Shown here: piece by piece, positions 11,011 through 59,548 of the stretch
Layout: each line of letters begins with the position of its first letter
Numbering within the stretch: position 1 is the first letter of the stretch
Origin: Methylophilaceae bacterium
Lineage (GTDB): Bacteria; Pseudomonadota; Gammaproteobacteria; Burkholderiales; Methylophilaceae
NCBI GenBank assembly: GCA_014378915.1
Contig: JACMMS010000138.1
Coordinates: forward strand, 1-59,935
DNA length: 59,935 nucleotides
Direction: 5' to 3'
The notes under the pieces: generated by a model
Seen by the model: the letters and a program-made list of their open reading frames with translations, nothing else
What the model was told of the DNA's origin: nothing
Database searches by the model: none
Made by a program: the position numbers and the translations under genes

Positions 11011-11736
11011 TTAGTGGGCTATTTCGGTTAATTTGTTGTATTTTAGCAACATATTTTTTATCTGTATTATTTTGCTAATATCTAGTTTAGATTGCCTATT
11101 TAAATCTTGGCAAACGCCCCCCCTGAAGCCTAAATAACTTGGCTTTAAACGAACCAGGTTATCCACTGATCCTAATTGTAAAGAGCCCGCTAAACCGCTA
11201 ATAAATTCATACTGCCCACAAACTTCAATGAACTCTGTTAATAATGCTATTGAAAGATGATAAATGAGGCTTTGACCATTCTTATGTGCGGTATCCAACA
11301 TAACCCCATCAAAACCTATTTTTTTTAATGATGGCATAATGCCCATTGCTAAATTTTGGTCGGCAAATAGCACAGCAACTAATTTTACTTTGTTGTTTTT
11401 TAATTGATTTACTTTTTCTATAAAGCCTATGTCCGACAACAAACTTTCTGCCAAGGCTGTACTTAATGCAATTTTGACAATATCAACGCCTAAACTAGCC
11501 GTATGCTCAATAGCTAAATTTAAATCTAAAATGGATTGATGATGTTCGCCAACCGTTGCACTAACTAGGGTACGGTGATTAATTGTCTGCACAATATCGT
11601 GCGTTATTTGGTAAGGCAACGCACCTAATGCACCAACGTTTGGATCTTTTAAATCAATAATATCGGCACCAGCATTCATGGCGATTAATGCTTCTGTAGT
11701 ATTAGTGACGCTAATAAGTAATTGTGTGTTCGTCAT
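11011..11736 (-). CDS. mfnB: (5-formylfuran-3-yl)methyl phosphate synthase
   Basis: 241 residues of the MfnB family (formerly DUF556). The enzyme condenses two glyceraldehyde-3-phosphate molecules into the furan precursor of methanofuran/methylofuran. It is a TIM-barrel protein; K30 in DLKDPNVGALG matches the Schiff-base Lys of the archaeal enzyme and K152 in DTAHKNG matches the second catalytic Lys. The gene starts nine bases after the DUF447 stop. It supplies the furan cofactor used by the FhcABCD complex encoded at 51.9-56.7 kb. This family is confined largely to methanogens and H4MPT-using methylotrophs. Confidence 0.92.
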   Translation of the reverse strand: MTNTQLLISVTNTTEALIAMNAGADIIDLKDPNVGALGALPYQITHDIVQTINHRTLVSATVGEHHQSILDLNLAIEHTASLGVDIVKIALSTALAESLLSDIGFIEKVNQLKNNKVKLVAVLFADQNLAMGIMPSLKKIGFDGVMLDTAHKNGQSLIYHLSIALLTEFIEVCGQYEFISGLAGSLQLGSVDNLVRLKPSYLGFRGGVCQDLNRQSKLDISKIIQIKNMLLKYNKLTEIAH

Positions 11737-11745
11737 ATGCCTAAG

Positions 11746-12318
11746 TTAAACTTTACTCGATATATTTTGATAGATTTTCTCGACCAGCCAGCCCCAAGCT
11801 TCTAGCTCGCGCTCACCTGCTGTTTTATCAATGGCAATTTGTAAATACTGCATTTCATTTTGAATTTTTTCGATGGGTAGCATATGCAAGCGACTCACCA
11901 ATACAGCCAATTCTACCACAGCGGATTGAGCACGATTAAAACCTTGAAATGGCTTATGATTAGCTTGATACACCACATCAAATACTAAAGTTGGTCGAAC
12001 ATTATCTTCGTTTACTTCAATTAAATGCAACTCTTTATGCGCTAAAGCTCCATCCAAAGCATGGCCTGAAATAATATTGGCAGACTTTAACTTCCATGTT
12101 TGGTGCTCAGTTAAGGCACCTGCAAAAATACGTACATCATCAGTAAAATTGATTACTGCCGACTTAGTCGCAATTACATTACTCAAGGTAGTAGATGGAC
12201 GAAATGGTGAAATGAGCACTTGATCATTTTGGTAACGAATGCCGAATGGCGTTACATGAGGCTTTCCAGCAACATCATTTGTCACTACTATCGTTTCAAA
12301 AATCATCTGTTGAGTCAT
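11746..12318 (-). CDS. DUF447 family protein of the H4MPT/methylofuran gene set
   Basis: 190 residues with no signal peptide or membrane segment. The sequence (MIFETIVVTND... HVTPFGIRY, and later INFTDDV) matches the DUF447 family, which has an FMN-binding split-barrel fold in archaea and is found with C1-cofactor genes. The start codon overlaps the DUF6513 stop by four bases (ATGA), so the two proteins are translationally coupled. A flavin-dependent or structural role in methylofuran or H4MPT synthesis is inference; no catalytic residue can be named. Confidence 0.82.
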   Translation of the reverse strand: MTQQMIFETIVVTNDVAGKPHVTPFGIRYQNDQVLISPFRPSTTLSNVIATKSAVINFTDDVRIFAGALTEHQTWKLKSANIISGHALDGALAHKELHLIEVNEDNVRPTLVFDVVYQANHKPFQGFNRAQSAVVELAVLVSRLHMLPIEKIQNEMQYLQIAIDKTAGERELEAWGWLVEKIYQNISSKV

Positions 12319-13820
12319 AAATTTGGTTTTGTGATAGTTTCATTAGAAGCAATTTCAGTCAATAATCTCTGGTTTTTATTAGTCTTTTCTACTTTTGAGG
12401 CCTCACGGTGCGATGAGCTACCAAAAGCATCCTTCTTAGGCGTCCCTACCCCCCAATTAAGTTCTTCATCTTGAACGTAACGTTTTTTTAGCTGCCATGC
12501 AATTTGCGCGCGTGCTAACTCTACACCCAAATAAAATGCGTGTGAGGCATCATTTTCCACCTTTAAAAACGGATAAAATTTAAACGGGTCAAGTTCCGTA
12601 AATAAGCCATCTCTATTGAAGATATGCACGCCTTCTTCAGACACTTGAATCCTAAAGCTGGGGTCTTTAATTTGAGAAGCTAACTCGGCAATTTCTTCAT
12701 TAGTATAAGTAAATGGGCGTCTATCATGTAAGCCCATCAAACCGTTACCATAACCACGAGGAAGTCGATTATCATCATGTGCGGCATGCATCATACGGCG
12801 AGCAACATCCGCTTCAGCAATCGCATTGACGGCATGCGAGCTCACAGACGTTGCTAAAACAGCATTGATATTAAGTTCACTAATCATGCCAAACAGCAAT
12901 GCATTAATACCTGTAGTATCGGCTTCAGTAAGCTCAGTTAAATTGCCAATACCCATCATAATAGAGATTTCTGGGTATTTTTTACGTAGCTTTTGATAGC
13001 GCACAATAGACGTGGTGAAACCGAAATGTATCGGGTCTAGAATTGCATCCGCAATAAAGGCTCTACCCTTAGCTTGACAATGTTCAATAGCACGATATAA
13101 AGATGCTAAACCACCACGCTTACCACGATTAGCCTCTGGAATAAGAATAGGTGTTGAGGGCACTTCATCGGCAATCCATAAGGTTTTTTCAGTTAGGCTT
13201 AGTAGATAGTCTGCACCTGATTTTCCTGCCAGCAATAAATCATCTGTATTAAGAGAATCAACGCTCACTTTTAATCCATGCTCGTGCAAGGCCTGAATTG
13301 TTTCGCTTAAGTGTGGAAATGGCGTATTGGGCAAGCAACCTAAATCAATCACATTAGCCCCCTGTTGACTAAAGCTCTGTGCTTTCGCAACTATACCAGC
13401 CACACTTAAAAATGGTGCATCAACAATTTCCGCAAAAATATCTACTGAGTATTTTGATAAATCTGGCACTTTTGCACCTTGTCCAAAATACTGTGGCAAA
13501 TCTTTTAAGTCATTTGGGCCTAGCTCAATGGGCACGCCGTACTTGGCTTGCAAAGGTCTTAGATCACCTTGGCATAGCCCAGGTAAAATAATCTTGTCTG
13601 CATCATTAATATTATTTAAGCGCCGCGCTATAAGCTGTGGCGTCATTAGCGCAGCAACAGATACACCTATTTGCTCTACCCGATAATTAAATGGTTCAGT
13701 TTTAGGATTACTTTGCACTTCTTTCAAAACCTTGTGTAAGCTTTTTTCCGCAAGTTTACCTGTCACAAATAATAGGTTCTTGGGTTTAACTGTAGATGAT
13801 ATTTTTTGTCGTTTTGTCAT
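12315..13820 (-). CDS. DUF6513 dihydropteroate synthase-like protein
   Basis: 501 residues. An N-terminal segment (about 12-120, beginning LLFVTGKLAEKSL) precedes a TIM-barrel region (about 150-370) related to pterin-binding enzymes, with NVIDLGCLPNTPFP, KVSVDSL and an IMMGIGN strand. The C-terminal part ends in a charged tail. This family is a fixed member of H4MPT gene clusters in methylotrophic bacteria and archaea. A role in pterin or furan cofactor assembly is likely, but I know of no proven reaction. It sits 53 bases after the DmrB-like gene and overlaps DUF447. Confidence 0.82.
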   Translation of the reverse strand: MTKRQKISSTVKPKNLLFVTGKLAEKSLHKVLKEVQSNPKTEPFNYRVEQIGVSVAALMTPQLIARRLNNINDADKIILPGLCQGDLRPLQAKYGVPIELGPNDLKDLPQYFGQGAKVPDLSKYSVDIFAEIVDAPFLSVAGIVAKAQSFSQQGANVIDLGCLPNTPFPHLSETIQALHEHGLKVSVDSLNTDDLLLAGKSGADYLLSLTEKTLWIADEVPSTPILIPEANRGKRGGLASLYRAIEHCQAKGRAFIADAILDPIHFGFTTSIVRYQKLRKKYPEISIMMGIGNLTELTEADTTGINALLFGMISELNINAVLATSVSSHAVNAIAEADVARRMMHAAHDDNRLPRGYGNGLMGLHDRRPFTYTNEEIAELASQIKDPSFRIQVSEEGVHIFNRDGLFTELDPFKFYPFLKVENDASHAFYLGVELARAQIAWQLKKRYVQDEELNWGVGTPKKDAFGSSSHREASKVEKTNKNQRLLTEIASNETITKPNL

Positions 13821-13873
13821 GCGATTTTTGACATATTTAAGTAAATCATATCAAAACAATGAATCCACACGAC

Positions 13874-14440
13874 TTAAGCGAGTCTATTTAAACGGTTGAG
13901 AATTGCATTGTGCAGGGAAGGAATATCAGCTACCACGGCAGTAAGTTCAAATTTTGCTAGCTTTTGTACATTATCCAAATCAACTTGACGTGGATAAACT
14001 TGTACTATATTTTCACGTGGAGCCTCTGATTCAATAAATAATGAATCAGGAGCAGGCGCAGTGTCACAAGCAAATATAATGCTCGACACACGAGTTTTTC
14101 CAGCTTGTGCGAACAGGTTGGTAACAAGGCTATCAGAGAATCCATACGCCATTTTAGCCACCGTGTTCGATGTGGCAGGCGCAATCACCAAAGTGTGATA
14201 TTTGCCTCCGTAAAACAGCTCCACAGGTATGCTGCTCGCAGTTTTATCTTGGTACACTTTATGACCAGTTGAATCTAAATCTGTTTGAAAACCATATTGC
14301 TTGATAATTTCAGCAGCAGCTTTACTTAAAAAAATATCGACATTCTCAAGGGTTTTCAACAAAGCTAAAGATTCACGTAAATAGTGCCCAGAGCCAGTAA
14401 TTGCCCATGCTAAACGCTGATTGGCTACATTATTTCTCAT
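13874..14440 (-). CDS. dmrB: Dihydromethanopterin reductase-like flavoprotein (DmrB/AfpA)
   Basis: 188 residues of the flavoprotein family with a Rossmann-like fold and FMN binding. WAITGSGHYLRES (about 12-24) is the nucleotide-binding start, and VIAPATSNTVAKMAYG is the typical flavin-contact segment. It resembles archaeal AfpA and bacterial DmrB, which reduces dihydromethanopterin to H4MPT in the last step of cofactor synthesis. It begins 23 bases after the purA stop and leads the run DmrB-DUF6513-DUF447-MfnB. The exact assignment as reductase rests on context and family resemblance. Confidence 0.8.
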   Translation of the reverse strand: MRNNVANQRLAWAITGSGHYLRESLALLKTLENVDIFLSKAAAEIIKQYGFQTDLDSTGHKVYQDKTASSIPVELFYGGKYHTLVIAPATSNTVAKMAYGFSDSLVTNLFAQAGKTRVSSIIFACDTAPAPDSLFIESEAPRENIVQVYPRQVDLDNVQKLAKFELTAVVADIPSLHNAILNRLNRLA

Positions 14441-14463: not shown

Positions 14464-15798
14464 CTACGCAGCAAAAGGATGTTGTAGGACAATCGTCTCA
14501 TCCCGTTCTGGGCCTGTCGAAACAATGGCAATTGGCACGCCGCATAAGGCTTCTAAGCGCATAAGATAGTTCTGCGCATTTTTGGGCAAACCATCCCAAG
14601 TTTTCACTCCAAAGGTATTGTCATGCCAACCTGCAACAGTCTCGTAGATTGGCTTACAACGTGATACATCATCTGCACCAACTGGCAACATATCGATGAC
14701 TTTGCCATCCAGTTCATAGCCCGTACAAATATCAAGCGAGTCAATACCGTCTAATACATCAAGCTTGGTAATGCATAAGCCTGTGAGGCCATTAATACGT
14801 GCTGAACGGCGCAATGCAGCGGAATCAAACCAGCCACAACGACGCTTACGCTTAGTCACAGTGCCAATCTCCTGACCTTTATTAGACATTTGGTAACCAG
14901 GCACGCCCGCAGTTTCAATATCTAATTCGCTAGGGAAAGGACCACCGCCCACACGGGTTGTGTAAGCTTTAGTAATACCCAATACGTAGTGCAACATATT
15001 AGCGCCAACACCAGTGCCAGCAGAAGCTTGGCCTGCAATACAGTTACTTGATGTGACGTATGGATATGTGCCGTGATCGATATCTAACAACGTGCCCTGT
15101 GCACCCTCAAACAACAGATTATCGCCCCTATCATTAGCTGCATAAAGCTCGGCAGAAATATCGGCTATCATTGGTTTAAGGGCAATTGCATGCTGCATGC
15201 TAGCATCATATTGCTGATTGTAATCAACGGCTTGTGCACCCAAATACTGCGTGAGTACAAAGTTATGATAATCCATCACATCGCGTAATTTTTCAGCAAA
15301 GCGCTCAGGATAAAATAAATCATAAACGCGTAATGCACGACGTGCTACTTTATCTTCATAGGTTGGGCCAATACCTTTTCCTGTGGTGCCAATTTTTTTA
15401 TCCGCACTACGTTTAGCTTCACGCGCGATATCCACAGCCACGTGGTGACTTAAAATTAATGGACAGCCTGGGCTTACTTTTAAACGACCTTTCACCTCTA
15501 AACCATTTTTTTCAAGTGCAATAATTTCGCCCAATAAATGACCCGCATCTAACACAACGCCATTACCAATATAGCAATTAATACCAGATCGTACGATGCC
15601 GGATGGCACCAAGTTTAACTTATACACACGCTGTGCATCACCTTGACCAACAACCAATGTGTGGCCTGCATTATGTCCACCTTGAAAGCGCACTACACCT
15701 TGCGCATGGTCAGTTAGCCAATCAACAATTTTACCTTTACCTTCATCACCCCATTGCGTACCAATGACTACTATGTTTTTTGCGGTGCTTTTTACCAT
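14464..15798 (-). CDS. purA: Adenylosuccinate synthetase
   Basis: 444 residues. The enzyme joins IMP and aspartate using GTP, the first committed step to AMP. Visible motifs are the P-loop-like [11 protein letters not shown] (about 13-23), the catalytic Asp of DEGKGK and HNAGHT with its catalytic His, [14 protein letters not shown], and [10 protein letters not shown]. Length and motifs are normal. It follows hisZ in the hfq-hflX-hflK-hflC-hisZ-purA order that is standard in Betaproteobacteria. Confidence 0.97.
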
Positions 15799-51921: not shown

Positions 51922-53265
51922 ATGAATAATACACATCACACTGAAATGGCGCCTAATCAAATGAAAGTAACTTGTCCAGCTTGCAGCTTACTTTGCGATG
52001 ATATCGTTGTAAAACTCGACGAGCACCAGCAAAGCATGAAGGTCATTGCCAACGGTTGTGCAAAAAGTATTCAATTTTTTGAGCAAACCGTCACAGATTC
52101 TAAGCCAACGATTAATGGCAACCCAGTTGATTTAAATACTGCCATTAATAAAGCAGCTGAGATTTTAAAGCTAGCTAATCAACCGCTGATTGCAGGGCTT
52201 GGAACCGAAGTACAAGGCATGCGTGCGATAATGCATCTTGCAGACAAAACAGGGGCGACGCTAGACCATATGCATAGCGATGCCACCATGCGCAACACGC
52301 TTGTGTTACAAAACTCAGGCTGGCAAACCACTACATTGACCGAAGTTAAAAATCGTGTTGATTTATTATTGGTCATTGGTACCGATATTGTGAGCAGTTT
52401 GCCACAGTTTTTTGAGCGAATTATCTGGAATGAATCCACACTTTTTGAGCAAGACACAAGCACGCGTGAAGTTATTTATCTGGGGGGCGGTAAGGGTTTA
52501 GATACTTCTGCCGGCAATTCACCAAACGGTACGCAACCTTCTGTAATCAATTGTGAAAATGCGCAGCTTCCAGAAGTGATTGCCACGCTCAATGCATTAA
52601 TTAATGGCAAGAACTTAACTACAGATAAAATTGCAGGCATCAACTTAGTCGATTTACAAAGCATTGCTGATAGACTCAAATGCGCAAAATATAGTGTGAT
52701 TACCTGGGCAAGCTCAGCCTTTAAGTTTGGTCATTCAGAGCTTTTAGTACAAGCCATTACAGAATGTGTGAGAACGCTCAACACAGGCTCATTTAAATTT
52801 AGCACGCGCTCTGCAGGCTTGCCACTAACAAGCGGGGATGGCGATAGTAGCGTGAGCAATGTTGCCACATGGATGAGCGGATATCCTTTAAGGAGCAGCT
52901 TTAAGCGTGGGTATCCAGAATATAACCCGTATGAATTTACAACCGAAAAATTACTTTCTAATAACGAAGCAGATTTGCTAATTTGGATTAGTAGTTTTAA
53001 ACCTGTTGCGCCTAGCCCAAATAGTTTAGCAAATCATAAATTGCCTGTCATTGTTATTGGTCATCCCAATATGCAATTTGAACAACAGCCCGATGTTTTC
53101 ATCCCTGTTCGTATATTAGGTTTACAAGAAAAAGGCTTAATGTTCCGCATGGATAGCTCAGTGACATTACCTTTGACACAAATCATGAACTCTAATTTAC
53201 CAAGTTTAAGTGACGTTTGTACACAAATTGAATTGGCATTAAATAATCATGAAAGCGGCAAATAG
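51922..53265 (+). CDS. fhcB: Formyltransferase/hydrolase complex subunit B (FhcB)
   Basis: 447 residues, related to subunit B of formylmethanofuran dehydrogenase. The N-terminal Cys motif CPACSLLCDDI (C18, C21, C25, with C46 in NGCAKS) is kept. The segment corresponding to the tungsten/molybdenum Cys ligand reads HMHSDATMRN, without Cys, in line with FhcB being a scaffold that has lost redox activity. TLTEVKNRVDLLLV is the conserved continuation. It begins the fhcBADC operon, with no good ribosome site in view at 51922. Confidence 0.93.
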   Translation: MNNTHHTEMAPNQMKVTCPACSLLCDDIVVKLDEHQQSMKVIANGCAKSIQFFEQTVTDSKPTINGNPVDLNTAINKAAEILKLANQPLIAGLGTEVQGMRAIMHLADKTGATLDHMHSDATMRNTLVLQNSGWQTTTLTEVKNRVDLLLVIGTDIVSSLPQFFERIIWNESTLFEQDTSTREVIYLGGGKGLDTSAGNSPNGTQPSVINCENAQLPEVIATLNALINGKNLTTDKIAGINLVDLQSIADRLKCAKYSVITWASSAFKFGHSELLVQAITECVRTLNTGSFKFSTRSAGLPLTSGDGDSSVSNVATWMSGYPLRSSFKRGYPEYNPYEFTTEKLLSNNEADLLIWISSFKPVAPSPNSLANHKLPVIVIGHPNMQFEQQPDVFIPVRILGLQEKGLMFRMDSSVTLPLTQIMNSNLPSLSDVCTQIELALNNHESGK

Positions 53266-53266
53266 C

Positions 53267-54946
53267 ATGAGTTTAATTAAATTAGCCAATGGCAAAATTT
53301 ACGACCCAGCACATCAAGTCGATGGCATAGTCAAAGATATTTTCATTCGCGATGGTCGTATTGTCAATCGACCACATAATGATGAGCCAATTACGCAAAC
53401 CTATGATTTAACAGGTAAAGTCGTGATGGCAGGTGCAATTGATATGCACACTCACATAGGTGGTGGCAAAGTAAACATTGCACGCATGATGTTGCCAGAA
53501 GATCATCGCGGTAATGAACAGGCTCATACAGATGTTTGCGGCTCTGGCTGTGGTCATGCCGCGCCTAGCACACTGACTACAGGTTATCGCTATGCAGAGA
53601 TGGGCTACACCGCAGGATTTGAACCTGCTATTTTGCCCATTAATGCACGACAATCCCATCTTGAAATGGGCGATACACCGATTATCGATAAAGGTGGCTA
53701 CGCCATGTTGGGTAGCGATGACTTTTTGTTGCGCATGCTAACCGCAAAGCAAGATCAAAACGCGATTAATGATTATGTGGCGTGGACACTGCACGCAACG
53801 CAGGCAATCGGTATTAAAGTAGTTAATCCTGGCGGCATCAGTGCTTTCAAATTTAATCAACGCAAACTTGATTTAGATGAACATCACGCTTATTACGATG
53901 TAACACCACGCGATATCTTAAAAACGCTATCACGAGCGGTACATGAACTAGGTGTCCCACATCCTTTGCATGTGCATGCCAATAATTTAGGCGTGCCGGG
54001 CAACTTTGAAACCACCCTTAGTACTATGGGTGCAAGCGAAGGATTTCCGCTACATCTCACCCATATTCAATTTCATAGCTATGGTAATGAGGGCGACCGC
54101 AAATTTTCATCCGCCGCAGCGCAGATTTCTGAAGCTTTAAATAACAATAAAAACATCTCCGCGGATGTTGGACAAATTCTCTTTGGTCAAACAGTTACCG
54201 CTTCGGGCGATAGCATGATGCAACATTTAAATGCCAACCATGCTAACCCAAAAAAATCTGTCATTATGGATATTGAATGTGATGCTGGTTGCGGTGTTGT
54301 ACCATTTAAATACCGTGACCAAAATTACGTTAATGCCTTGCAATGGGCAATTGGGCTTGAGATATTTTTACTATCTAATGACCCATGGCGTATCTTTTTA
54401 ACTACGGATCACCCCAATGGCGCACCTTTTACAAGCTACCCACACCTCATTAAACTATTGATGGATAAAAGCTTTCGCGATGAAACCTTTGCCAAACTCA
54501 ATTTAGATGCGCAAGCAATGAGTACATTAAGCAGCATAGATCGCGAATATAGCTTATATGAAATAGCCATTATGACGCGTGCGGGTGCAGCTAAATTAGT
54601 TGGTTTGCGCGACAGGGGCCATTTGGGCGCAGATGCAGCGGCAGATATTACGGTATATACAGATAACGCAGACCGCGAAAAAATGTTTGCTAAACCTGAT
54701 TTCGTATTTAAAGATGGTGAGTTAGTAGTTAAAGATGGGGCTGTTATTAAAGTCACATGGGGTGCTACGCATACCGTTAAACCAGAGTTTGATCGCGGCA
54801 TTGAAAAAGATCTACTTCAATATTTTGATAAATATCACACAATACAATTAGATAACTTCAAAATTGGTAACGATGAAATTGAGAATAATGGGCGTGGCAA
54901 AATCATTGTGCAACCTTGTGAAGGTCGCAGAGAAAAATCGGTTTAA
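53267..54946 (+). CDS. fhcA: Formyltransferase/hydrolase complex subunit A (FhcA)
   Basis: 559 residues, amidohydrolase-type zinc enzyme that hydrolyses formylmethylofuran to formate. Metal ligands line up with FwdA: H61 and H63 in MHTHIGGG, K184 (carboxylated Lys site), H235/H237, H263/H266 and D381 in TTDHPN. The start at 53267 is chosen because the alternative ATG at 53249 lies inside fhcB. The stop TAA shares its last base with the fhcD start. Confidence 0.95.
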   Translation: MSLIKLANGKIYDPAHQVDGIVKDIFIRDGRIVNRPHNDEPITQTYDLTGKVVMAGAIDMHTHIGGGKVNIARMMLPEDHRGNEQAHTDVCGSGCGHAAPSTLTTGYRYAEMGYTAGFEPAILPINARQSHLEMGDTPIIDKGGYAMLGSDDFLLRMLTAKQDQNAINDYVAWTLHATQAIGIKVVNPGGISAFKFNQRKLDLDEHHAYYDVTPRDILKTLSRAVHELGVPHPLHVHANNLGVPGNFETTLSTMGASEGFPLHLTHIQFHSYGNEGDRKFSSAAAQISEALNNNKNISADVGQILFGQTVTASGDSMMQHLNANHANPKKSVIMDIECDAGCGVVPFKYRDQNYVNALQWAIGLEIFLLSNDPWRIFLTTDHPNGAPFTSYPHLIKLLMDKSFRDETFAKLNLDAQAMSTLSSIDREYSLYEIAIMTRAGAAKLVGLRDRGHLGADAAADITVYTDNADREKMFAKPDFVFKDGELVVKDGAVIKVTWGATHTVKPEFDRGIEKDLLQYFDKYHTIQLDNFKIGNDEIENNGRGKIIVQPCEGRREKSV

Positions 54947-55872
54947 TGATGATTATTAATGGCGTACAAATAGACGACACTTATGCCGAAGCATTTAATA
55001 TGCGCGGCACACGAGTCATTATTACAGCAATCAACTTAAAATGGGCTTATCACGCTGCTAATGCAATGACAGGCTTTGCAACCAGCGTTATTGGTTGTGG
55101 CGTAGAGTCTGCCATCGAAAAAGAATTAAGTGGCAACGAAACTCCTGATGGTCGCCCTGGTGTCGCAATCTTTATGTTTGCAATGGGTTCTGCAGTATTG
55201 ATGAAGCAACTCGAAACTCGCATGGGGCAATGTATACTCACCTGCCCCACTGCTGCTGCATTTAGCGGTATTGATAGCCCGGAACAAATTAGCCTTGGTA
55301 AAAATCTACGTTATTTTGGTGATGGTTTTCAAACATCAAAATTAATACAGAATCAAGATGGTATCGCCAAAAGATACTGGCGTATACCCGTGATGGATGG
55401 CGAATTTTTAATTGAAGAAACGACGGGAATGGTGCGTGCTATTGGAGGTGGCAATTTCTTAGTATTAGCCACATCGCAAGCTCAGGCATTAGCGGCTTGC
55501 GAAGCTGCTATTGAAGCCATGAAAAAAATACCTAACGTGATTATGCCTTTCCCAGGTGGTGTTGTACGCTCTGGCTCGAAAGTTGGTGCAAAATACAAAA
55601 CCATGTTTGCCAGCACCAATGACGCTTTTTGTCCTACGCTCAAAGGTAACACAAAAACTGAGTTATCGCCCGATATAGAATCTGTGATGGAAATCGTGAT
55701 TGATGGCATTAGCTTTGAAGATATCGCCAAAGCCATGCAGGTTGGTATTACCGCAGCCTGCTCATTAGGAAGTGAGAATGGTATCAGACGTATTTCAGCA
55801 GGTAACTACGGTGGAAAACTTGGGCCGCATCTTTTCAAATTACATGAAATTATGAGTATAGCGCAATCATGA
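54946..55872 (+). CDS. fhcD: Formylmethanofuran-H4MPT formyltransferase (FhcD/Ftr)
   Basis: 308 residues. The enzyme moves the formyl group between H4MPT and methylofuran. INGVQIDDTYAEAFNMRGTR is the typical start, and GSAVLMKQLETRMGQCILTCPT the conserved core. Overlap TAATG with fhcA and ATGA with fhcC shows tight translational coupling. Ftr is homologous to the archaeal enzyme. Confidence 0.96.
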   Translation: MMIINGVQIDDTYAEAFNMRGTRVIITAINLKWAYHAANAMTGFATSVIGCGVESAIEKELSGNETPDGRPGVAIFMFAMGSAVLMKQLETRMGQCILTCPTAAAFSGIDSPEQISLGKNLRYFGDGFQTSKLIQNQDGIAKRYWRIPVMDGEFLIEETTGMVRAIGGGNFLVLATSQAQALAACEAAIEAMKKIPNVIMPFPGGVVRSGSKVGAKYKTMFASTNDAFCPTLKGNTKTELSPDIESVMEIVIDGISFEDIAKAMQVGITAACSLGSENGIRRISAGNYGGKLGPHLFKLHEIMSIAQS

Positions 55873-56696
55873 GTGAAGCCATGAACACACTCAGTCTCAC
55901 TATTAAAATCACCTTGCAGCAAAGACTTGACTGCACACCACTCACGCCTTGCAAATTAAACAACTTAACTCAAACTGAAATTGCGAGTATTCCACTGTAT
56001 TACGGTAAAGCTCAATTACGCGTAGATGAAGTTTTTGAACTTGATTTTAATAACAATCCGGCTATTTCAAGCATTATATTTAATGATGCCAATGAAAAAA
56101 TGGATTGCATAGGCGCAAACATGAGCGCCGGCGAATTAAGCATTAACGGTAATGCAGGCAATCAGCTAGGTTTTAAAATGAGTGCGGGTAAAATATTTTG
56201 TTCGGGTAACGTTGGCGAATTTGCTGGTTGTGGCATGAGTGATGGCTTTATTAATATCCATGGTAACGTAGGTGACTTTTTAGGTGCGGCACTTACTGGT
56301 GAGCGCAAAGGTATGCGAGGTGGCACCATTATCATCAAGGGTAATGCAGGCGATAGAGTTGGCGACCAAATGCGCCGAGGGCTCATACTTATTGAAGGTA
56401 ATGCAGGTGACTACTGCGGCTCACGCATGATTGCAGGCACCATTGGCGTGTTAGGCACATTGGGACAATATACGGCTTATAGCATGCGCCGTGGTACGCT
56501 ATTACTCAAAACCTTACCCACGCTGCACGCAACAGTACAAGACTGCGGCACCCATACATTGCCATACTTAAGCTTACTATTTAATTCGTTTAAGCGCTTT
56601 GATACGCCATTCAATCAGATAAAAAGCCAACGTGTACAAAGATATGTAGGTGATTTGGGTACTAGTGGCAATGGTGAAATCCTCATTATTCAATAA
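55869..56696 (+). CDS. fhcC: Formyltransferase/hydrolase complex subunit C (FhcC)
   Basis: 275 residues with an N-terminal short domain and a right-handed beta-helix built from GNxG repeats (INGNAGNQLG, CSGNVGEFAG, IHGNVGDFLG, IKGNAGDRVG, IEGNAGDYCG, about 95-185), as in FwdC and the glutamate synthase alpha end. It holds the FhcABD subunits together. The start overlaps fhcD by four bases. It closes the operon. Confidence 0.95.
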   Translation: MSEAMNTLSLTIKITLQQRLDCTPLTPCKLNNLTQTEIASIPLYYGKAQLRVDEVFELDFNNNPAISSIIFNDANEKMDCIGANMSAGELSINGNAGNQLGFKMSAGKIFCSGNVGEFAGCGMSDGFINIHGNVGDFLGAALTGERKGMRGGTIIIKGNAGDRVGDQMRRGLILIEGNAGDYCGSRMIAGTIGVLGTLGQYTAYSMRRGTLLLKTLPTLHATVQDCGTHTLPYLSLLFNSFKRFDTPFNQIKSQRVQRYVGDLGTSGNGEILIIQ

Positions 56697-59181: not shown

Positions 59182-59548
59182 GGGGCTGACCAGGTTTCGA
59201 CGTGGGTTGCAAAGCAGTGCAGGGCATACCGAGGCTCAGATTACCTCGTAAATACAGCTGAACAAGTATAGTCGCAAACGACGAAACTTACTCTCTAGCC
59301 GCTTAAGACCGGCTGGACGCTGCACCACCTCTCCCGTGGGGTGGATGGCCTTAAAACCATGGCAGTGTCATATACACGGGATACGTGTTGTGTTGGGTCA
59401 CTTAGCACTTCATTAACCTTTAGGTAACTCGTCTGCACACTGCTTGTCTGTTGGTGTGGTGCAGATTAAACTAAACAACAAGGCTAAGTATGTAGAACTG
59501 TCTGTGGAGGGCTTGCGGACGCGGGTTCGATTCCCGCCAGCTCCACCA
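59182..59548 (+). ncRNA. ssrA: Transfer-messenger RNA (tmRNA)
   Basis: The one-piece tmRNA starts GGGGCTGACC and ends in the T-arm GGTTCGATTCCCGCC followed by AGCTCCACCA, giving a tRNA-Ala-like acceptor GGGGCTG/CAGCTCC and encoded CCA. The tag frame at 59274-59306 encodes ANDETYSLAA and stop, close to the proteobacterial ANDENYALAA tag. It frees stalled ribosomes and marks the unfinished protein for proteolysis. Confidence 0.97.
59274..59306 (+). other. tmRNA tag reading frame (ANDETYSLAA)
   Basis: Ten codons plus TAA inside ssrA. The resume codon is GCA. The tag ends in LAA, the ClpXP recognition signal. Thr and Ser replace the Asn and Ala of the E. coli tag at positions 5 and 7. Confidence 0.9.

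Follow-up and report, generated by a model that had tools for sequence, protein, structure and literature searches.

Methanogens and methylotrophs use tetrahydromethanopterin (H4MPT) as a carrier of one-carbon units. The cofactor has a second ribose, and its open-chain deoxyribitol requires reduction of a ribofuranosyl ring, a step to which, to our knowledge, no enzyme has been assigned. Enzymes had been lacking for several steps of H4MPT synthesis, and a table from 2011 estimates that seven unknown proteins take part in it (PMC3087415). The island described for Methylosinus trichosporium has the order orf19-orf20-afpA-orf21-orf22 (PMC3615186), orf22 has been identified as MfnB (PMC8141765), and a table of the Methylophilaceae gene set counts orf22, orf19, orf20 and afp as H4MPT genes that occur in all nine genomes compared (PMC4109929). 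Here we analyse a 59,935-nt stretch of the genome of a Methylophilaceae bacterium (contig JACMMS010000138.1; this whole stretch is called the window below), in which four minus-strand genes at positions 11011-14440 encode an AfpA/DmrB-like flavoprotein, a DUF6513 protein, a DUF447 protein and MfnB.

The cassette is the known bacterial afp-orf19/20-orf22 island, and the original prediction, made without database searches, that it serves H4MPT and methylofuran was borne out. The literature that we searched assigns no reaction to either DUF447 or DUF6513; DUF447 occurs in seven papers, and the names DUF6513, TIGR00284, MJ0107 and DUF4346 were absent from the literature searched by text. We found that DUF6513 follows the H4MPT marker FTR and that DUF447 follows the synthase of the C-riboside arylamine ribofuranosylaminobenzene 5'-phosphate (RFAP), with exceptions in both of the samples described below. 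The two unassigned proteins are tied to the pterin cofactor rather than to the furan cofactor. The explanation that we offer for the island as a whole, and to which we give about an even chance, is that three of its genes serve (dephospho-)H4MPT and MfnB serves methylofuran, with a separate proposed step for each of DUF6513 and DUF447.

Conservation and distribution of the two unassigned proteins

The genes of the cassette were found at 20 loci, that of the window included, among 120 genomes of the order Burkholderiales. DUF6513 is contiguous with DUF447 in 19 of the 20 loci and DUF447 with mfnB also in 19, while afpA lies immediately upstream of DUF6513 in 16; an arrangement kept to this degree is not due to chance. 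Four loci show no afpA: two of them (L029 and L031) end on the upstream side at a contig edge, a third (L027) ends there at the edge of the stretch examined, and in the fourth (L022) some 7 kb of upstream sequence contain none. At L027 DUF6513 lies about 9 kb away from DUF447, and at L034 no mfnB follows DUF447. Overlaps, projected using the starts of the window proteins, occur at 13 of the 19 contiguous DUF6513/DUF447 pairs and at 13 of the 19 DUF447/mfnB pairs. The earlier suggestion that translational coupling marks joint action of the two unknown proteins is thus weakened, because with overlaps as frequent at the DUF447/mfnB junction the coupling of DUF6513 to DUF447 is not special.

We profiled DUF447, DUF6513/TIGR00284, RFAP synthase and FTR, the last as the marker for the H4MPT/methanofuran pathway, in the 120 Burkholderiales genomes, in 148 genomes of Halobacteriota and in 14 named controls. 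In the Burkholderiales, DUF447 was present in 20 genomes, DUF6513 in 21, RFAP synthase in 20 over the cut-off (21 with any match) and FTR in 19. DUF447 and RFAP synthase occurred together in 19 genomes and were both missing from 99, with two discordant; for DUF447 and DUF6513 the counts were 20, 99 and one. The exceptions include G006 (68% complete), which is without DUF447, and G030, which is without FTR.

For the archaea, TIGR00284 was used in place of PF20123, which understates DUF6513 there (any match in 74 of the 148 genomes, 54 over the cut-off). TIGR00284 gave any match in 128 Halobacteriota and a match over the cut-off in 114; 121 were counted as strong, a count that omits seven genomes with E values of 5e-4 to 5e-7. 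Strong TIGR00284 and FTR agree in 143 of the 148 genomes (120 with both, 23 with neither). DUF447 was found in 140 genomes, RFAP synthase in 144 (135 over the cut-off) and FTR in 124. DUF447 departs from FTR: 119 genomes have both, 21 have DUF447 alone, five have FTR alone and three have neither. Among the 24 genomes without FTR, 21 have both DUF447 and RFAP synthase and three have neither (Fisher p 0.0005, relatedness ignored). Over the whole sample, 139 genomes have DUF447 and RFAP synthase, one has DUF447 alone, five have RFAP synthase alone and three have neither when any match is accepted; over the cut-off the figures are 130, 10, 5 and 3. A strong TIGR00284 match occurs in one of the 21 FTR-less genomes with DUF447 (G255) and in no other of them. 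Judging from the Haloferax control, most of the FTR-less genomes are presumably haloarchaea.

In the controls, DUF447 and RFAP synthase both match in four of the 14 (M. jannaschii, H. volcanii, S. acidocaldarius and M. acetivorans), FTR matches in the two methanogens only, and PF20123 matches M. jannaschii and S. acidocaldarius. TIGR00284 matches seven controls, three of them over the cut-off; the seven include E. coli, B. subtilis, Synechococcus and Thermotoga, a pattern expected of cross-hits to ordinary dihydropteroate synthases, and Haloferax has no match.

According to the original prediction, DUF447 and DUF6513 always travel with the cofactor genes. This holds in the 120-genome bacterial sample and fails for DUF447, which is common without FTR. 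The homologues in organisms without the cofactors that the prediction had counted against itself were found for DUF447 (H. volcanii and the 21 of 24 FTR-less genomes) and not for DUF6513. The same distribution bears on the idea that both proteins serve methylofuran synthesis with MfnB, which could be drawn from the contiguity of DUF447 with mfnB in 19 of 20 Burkholderiales loci and their projected overlap in 13 of 19. We regard this as highly improbable, since DUF447 occurs without FTR in H. volcanii and, together with DUF6513, in S. acidocaldarius, and since DUF447 is kept in most FTR-less Halobacteriota, as counted above (MfnB was not among the profiled families).

Folds, archaeal neighbours and proposed steps

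The DUF447 protein matches PF04289 and PF20766 with 83.5 and 73 bits (cut-offs 24 and 24.8). Its model (predicted local distance difference test score, pLDDT, 91.1) indicates a split barrel of the flavin mononucleotide (FMN) type, the best matches being 3b5m (Z 22.4), FMN-bound 2nr4 (Z 19.9) and the FMN structures 2iml (Z 18.7) and 2ptf (Z 18.2), followed by flavin reductases at Z of about 16-17. When the sequences were aligned as three groups (20 from bacteria, 16 from methanogen-type loci and 20 from FTR-less archaea), residues E8, T13, G26, T44, N47, D61, R129, R143 and E171 were common (at least 0.85) to all three.

The most constant partner of DUF447 in archaea is CitG. Archaeal genes were called by conservation, and CitG in the FTR-less loci was counted with tblastn. 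CitG adjoins DUF447 in all 16 loci that were chosen for a nearby TIGR00284 (15 within 5 kb and one further pair about 7.5 kb apart), and a scan of genome contigs found it in 21 of 25 archaeal loci. In the 20 FTR-less loci without strong TIGR00284 (L152-L171, from 20 of the 21 genomes with DUF447, G255 not being included), CitG is directly upstream of DUF447 in every case, and CofD and a Dus-like gene were each found in 19. Bacterial CitG sits in the mptG-mtdB-mch cluster of the window's own genome. The neighbourhoods of RFAP synthase in FTR-less archaea held nothing informative.

A DmrX-type flavoprotein, made of Flavoprotein and ferredoxin domains, is present in 13 of the 16 TIGR00284-linked loci, directly downstream of DUF447 in 11 of them, and in 16 of the 25 archaeal loci. 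Taken with the flavin-reductase fold, this would suit a DUF447 that is a flavin reductase or electron carrier feeding the AfpA/DmrX dihydropterin reductase and has no pathway substrate of its own. We consider such a role unlikely: archaeal DmrX carries its own ferredoxin domains, the fixed bacterial neighbours of DUF447 are DUF6513 and MfnB, and in the 20 FTR-less loci DUF447 adjoins CitG, where no gene is labelled DmrX or AfpA.

RFAP synthases of FTR-less archaea score over the TIGR00144 cut-off of 113.5 in 19 of 20 genomes, and that of G147 scores 111 bits. All 20 (L172-L191) have Arg at the presumed position of R26 and Asn at that of D19, the numbering being that of PMC6787355 and the positions being placed by their spacing of seven. 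In the studied enzyme D19A and R26A are reported to be inactive, and D19N and R26K to be active with a higher KM for 4-aminobenzoate (PMC6787355). So far as residues can tell, the Asn/Arg pattern fits an active enzyme, at odds with the view put forward in PMC8305020, according to which folate serves in haloarchaea and RFAP is probably not a product of the Haloferax homologue HVO_2628. A speculative and rather unlikely extension is that DUF447 is an FMN-dependent reductase opening the ring of RFAP (or of its pterin conjugate) ahead of a CitG-type ribosylation, in which case halophilic archaea with this RFAP synthase-DUF447-CitG branch would make an unrecognised methanopterin-like arylamine or one-carbon cofactor. 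In a genome paper of 2026, DUF447 proteins are connected with the cannulae of Pyrodictiaceae (PMC13140500), which the cofactor link found here makes doubtful.

The DUF6513 protein matches PF20123 with 113.9 bits (cut-off 23.9) and TIGR00284 with 186.5 bits, below the curated score of 256.65, and is therefore filed under DUF6513, as a TIGR00284 relative. Its barrel (model residues 124-353) superimposes on dihydropteroate synthase 1ad1 with Z 20.3 over 219 aligned residues (root mean square deviation 3.0). When the family profile was compared with solved structures, 20 of 22 hits (E up to 0.1) were named dihydropteroate synthase, Sul or folate synthesis protein. D159, D188 and D258 align with Asp residues of dihydropteroate synthases, and an archaeal DUF6513 relative also matches Pterin_bind (47.1 bits, cut-off 25.5). 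Xu et al. in 1999 reportedly found a dihydropteroate-synthase-type activity for an M. jannaschii protein.

The CitG family transfers a triphosphoribosyl group, and in extracts reduced flavin reportedly served for one of the reductions of methanopterin synthesis. In the pathway that we propose, DUF6513 would couple activated dihydropterin to RFAP as the H4MPT counterpart of dihydropteroate synthase, an assignment that we moderately favour because its barrel is of the pterin-binding type and because it is confined to organisms of the H4MPT type. DUF447 is likely to be an FMN-type protein acting on an RFAP-derived intermediate, which it would reduce, perhaps opening the ribose ring; the proposal is made because of its FMN-type fold and its presence with RFAP synthase even without FTR and TIGR00284. 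The step that we think likeliest for it, a two-electron reduction that would turn the ribofuranosyl ring into the open-chain deoxyribitol, is a tentative suggestion, to which we give less than an even chance. Where DUF6513 is missing, the substrate of DUF447 would be free RFAP or a conjugate formed in another way. CitG could add the second ribose, AfpA/DmrB would reduce dihydropterin to tetrahydropterin, and MfnB would make the furan precursor.

Several observations weigh against these proposals. G084 (L039, 97% complete) has afpA-DUF6513-DUF447-mfnB and no match to RFAP synthase or FTR; the RFAP synthase of ten archaeal genomes with DUF447 is below the cut-off (nine) or missing (one), and five archaeal genomes have RFAP synthase without DUF447. 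The FTR-less genomes are probably in large part one clade, and hence not independent. DUF447 cannot always act on the product of DUF6513, the FTR-less archaea being without TIGR00284, and the two genes lie at most 5 kb apart in just 15 of the 118 archaeal genomes with the pair. Two DUF447 residues that are invariant in the bacterial and methanogen-type groups are replaced in FTR-less archaea, P24 by Ala (0.95) and N57 by Gln (0.9). The model of DUF6513 is weak, with a mean pLDDT of 60.9 and a weak second half, and in its structure search the methyltransferase 2yci (Z 19.4) ties with the dihydropteroate synthases. GxGN, found in all 32 aligned DUF6513 sequences (from 18 of the 20 bacterial loci, with long matches, and 14 of the 16 archaeal loci, with more than 400 residues), stands at what we take to be the position of the SRK motif of dihydropteroate synthases; since SRK is not found there, DUF6513 was not filed as a dihydropteroate synthase. 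The tie with 2yci, the GxGN motif and the archaeal relative's match to PF03599 (CdhD; 27.2 bits, cut-off 24.8) would all suit a pterin methyltransferase-like or other pterin-binding enzyme that does not join pterin to RFAP. We think this improbable, given the names of the 20 profile hits and given that no alternative candidate for the coupling step was seen in the cassette.

The locus and the purA site

Open reading frame coordinates and Pfam matches confirmed the layout given in the original prediction, namely four adjacent minus-strand genes with one ATGA overlap, of 4 bases, and short gaps (53 bases between AfpA and DUF6513, 9 between DUF447 and MfnB), 23 bases after purA. The features are collected in the table.

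Table. Features of the cassette and related genes in the window
Feature	Positions	Strand	Basis and remarks
purA	14464-15798	minus	PF00709; housekeeping neighbour outside the cassette, not counted as a functional part
AfpA/DmrB-like flavoprotein, proposed dihydromethanopterin reductase	13874-14440	minus	PF02441; solved match 3wis
DUF6513 protein, TIGR00284-like	12315-13820	minus	PF20123; dihydropteroate-synthase-like barrel, extra N-terminal domain, DUF4346-like end
ATGA overlap of DUF6513 stop and DUF447 start	12315-12318	minus	sequence
DUF447 protein, FMN-type split barrel (predicted) and helical C-terminal domain	11746-12318	minus	PF04289 and PF20766; model
MfnB, (5-formylfuran-3-yl)methyl phosphate synthase family	11011-11736	minus	PF04476; 4rc1 (MJ1099)
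fhcB, fhcA, fhcD, fhcC, formyltransferase/hydrolase genes of the same pathway	51922-56696	plus	PF07969, PF01913/PF02741, PF01493

AfpA matches the putative dihydromethanopterin reductase AfpA of 3wis over residues 7-187 of 188 (E 7.6e-47) and stays below the curated scores of TIGR02699 (98.9 of 192.45) and TIGR02700 (100.6 of 251.35), one of which is named as an archaeoflavoprotein and the other after MJ0208. MfnB matches PF04476 with 199.9 bits (gathering cut-off 22.4) and 4rc1 with E 5e-19, and is below the NCBIfam curated scores, the best being NF002576 (234.2 of 297). The fhc genes lie 36 kb from the cassette; fhcB is assigned by position only, the first fhc open reading frame having no Pfam match. 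A second contig of the same genome carries RFAP synthase (mptG), mtdB, an ATP-grasp gene, mch, a RimK-type ligase and CitG, followed by a transaldolase, a HUMPS-family gene and a SIS gene. With the cassette, the fhc genes and this contig, a large part of the H4MPT pathway is therefore present. Near the right end of the window (59182-59548) there is a tmRNA gene with the tag ANDETYSLAA.

The purA neighbourhood was examined at 57 loci from 60 genomes of the family Methylophilaceae; G311 (no purA match) and G294 and G315 (purA in pieces) were left out of the count. Part of the 57 loci covered only about 4 kb, in which afpA and DUF6513 are visible and nothing further; G312 ends after afpA, and the best afpA match of G277 is outside the usual place. 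Cassette genes follow purA in 49 loci. In the other eight, all from genomes of 1.3-1.4 Mb and from two genera, hisZ, purA and a TRZ-type hydrolase stand together with no cassette match between them. hisZ is upstream of purA in all 57, and purA has a single match in the window's own genome. Among the 20 Burkholderiales loci purA precedes the cassette in four, all of the window's family, and it was not found at the other 16, outside the family (upstream sequence is cut off in three). Planktonic Methylophilaceae with much smaller genomes are described as lacking H4MPT/methanofuran functions (PMC5020050). The simplest reading is that the block was inserted at, or lost from, the purA site and that purA is a bystander.

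The idea that attachment to purA ties purine supply to pterin synthesis is accordingly not supported. A functional tie could also run through a PurA-type amination in arylamine formation, for archaeal methanopterin arylamine synthesis is described as having a step that resembles PurA chemistry, with PurB taking part (PMC3261824), and the 49 family loci with the cassette downstream of purA would agree with it. Either form of the tie seems to us very unlikely, since hisZ-purA is kept without the cassette in eight family loci, hisZ stays upstream of purA throughout, and no purA was found at the 16 loci outside the family (three of them cut off upstream).

Relation to known systems

Two proteins that had so far been treated as one group are told apart by the profiles, which tie DUF447 to the RFAP branch. 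The useful outcome is that the two unknowns are split, that there is a case against the purA link and that each protein has a testable step. The question raised is the role of RFAP synthase, DUF447 and CitG in archaea without FTR.

Dihydropteroate synthase shares with DUF6513 the barrel fold (Z 20, 219 residues) and three aligned Asp residues, while DUF6513 has extra N- and C-terminal parts, presumably lacks the SRK motif and would be expected to use a different second substrate. The DUF447 proteins of 2nr4, 2iml, 2ptf and 3b5m have the same family and fold as the protein of the window, with FMN in three of the four titles and no assigned function in any title. The archaeal CitG-DUF447-DmrX(-TIGR00284) cluster contains homologues of the DUF447, flavoprotein and DUF6513-type genes, which are linked in some of the genomes. 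It differs from the cassette in having CitG, accompanied by CofD and a Dus-like gene in FTR-less archaea, and MfnB was not seen among the archaeal clusters displayed. Compared with the island of Methylosinus trichosporium, the cassette is without orf21 (MfnE) and sits after purA. By elimination DUF447 and DUF6513 are, as a pair, orf19 and orf20, because CitG adjoins a RimK-type orf5-like gene after mch, as orf7 does.

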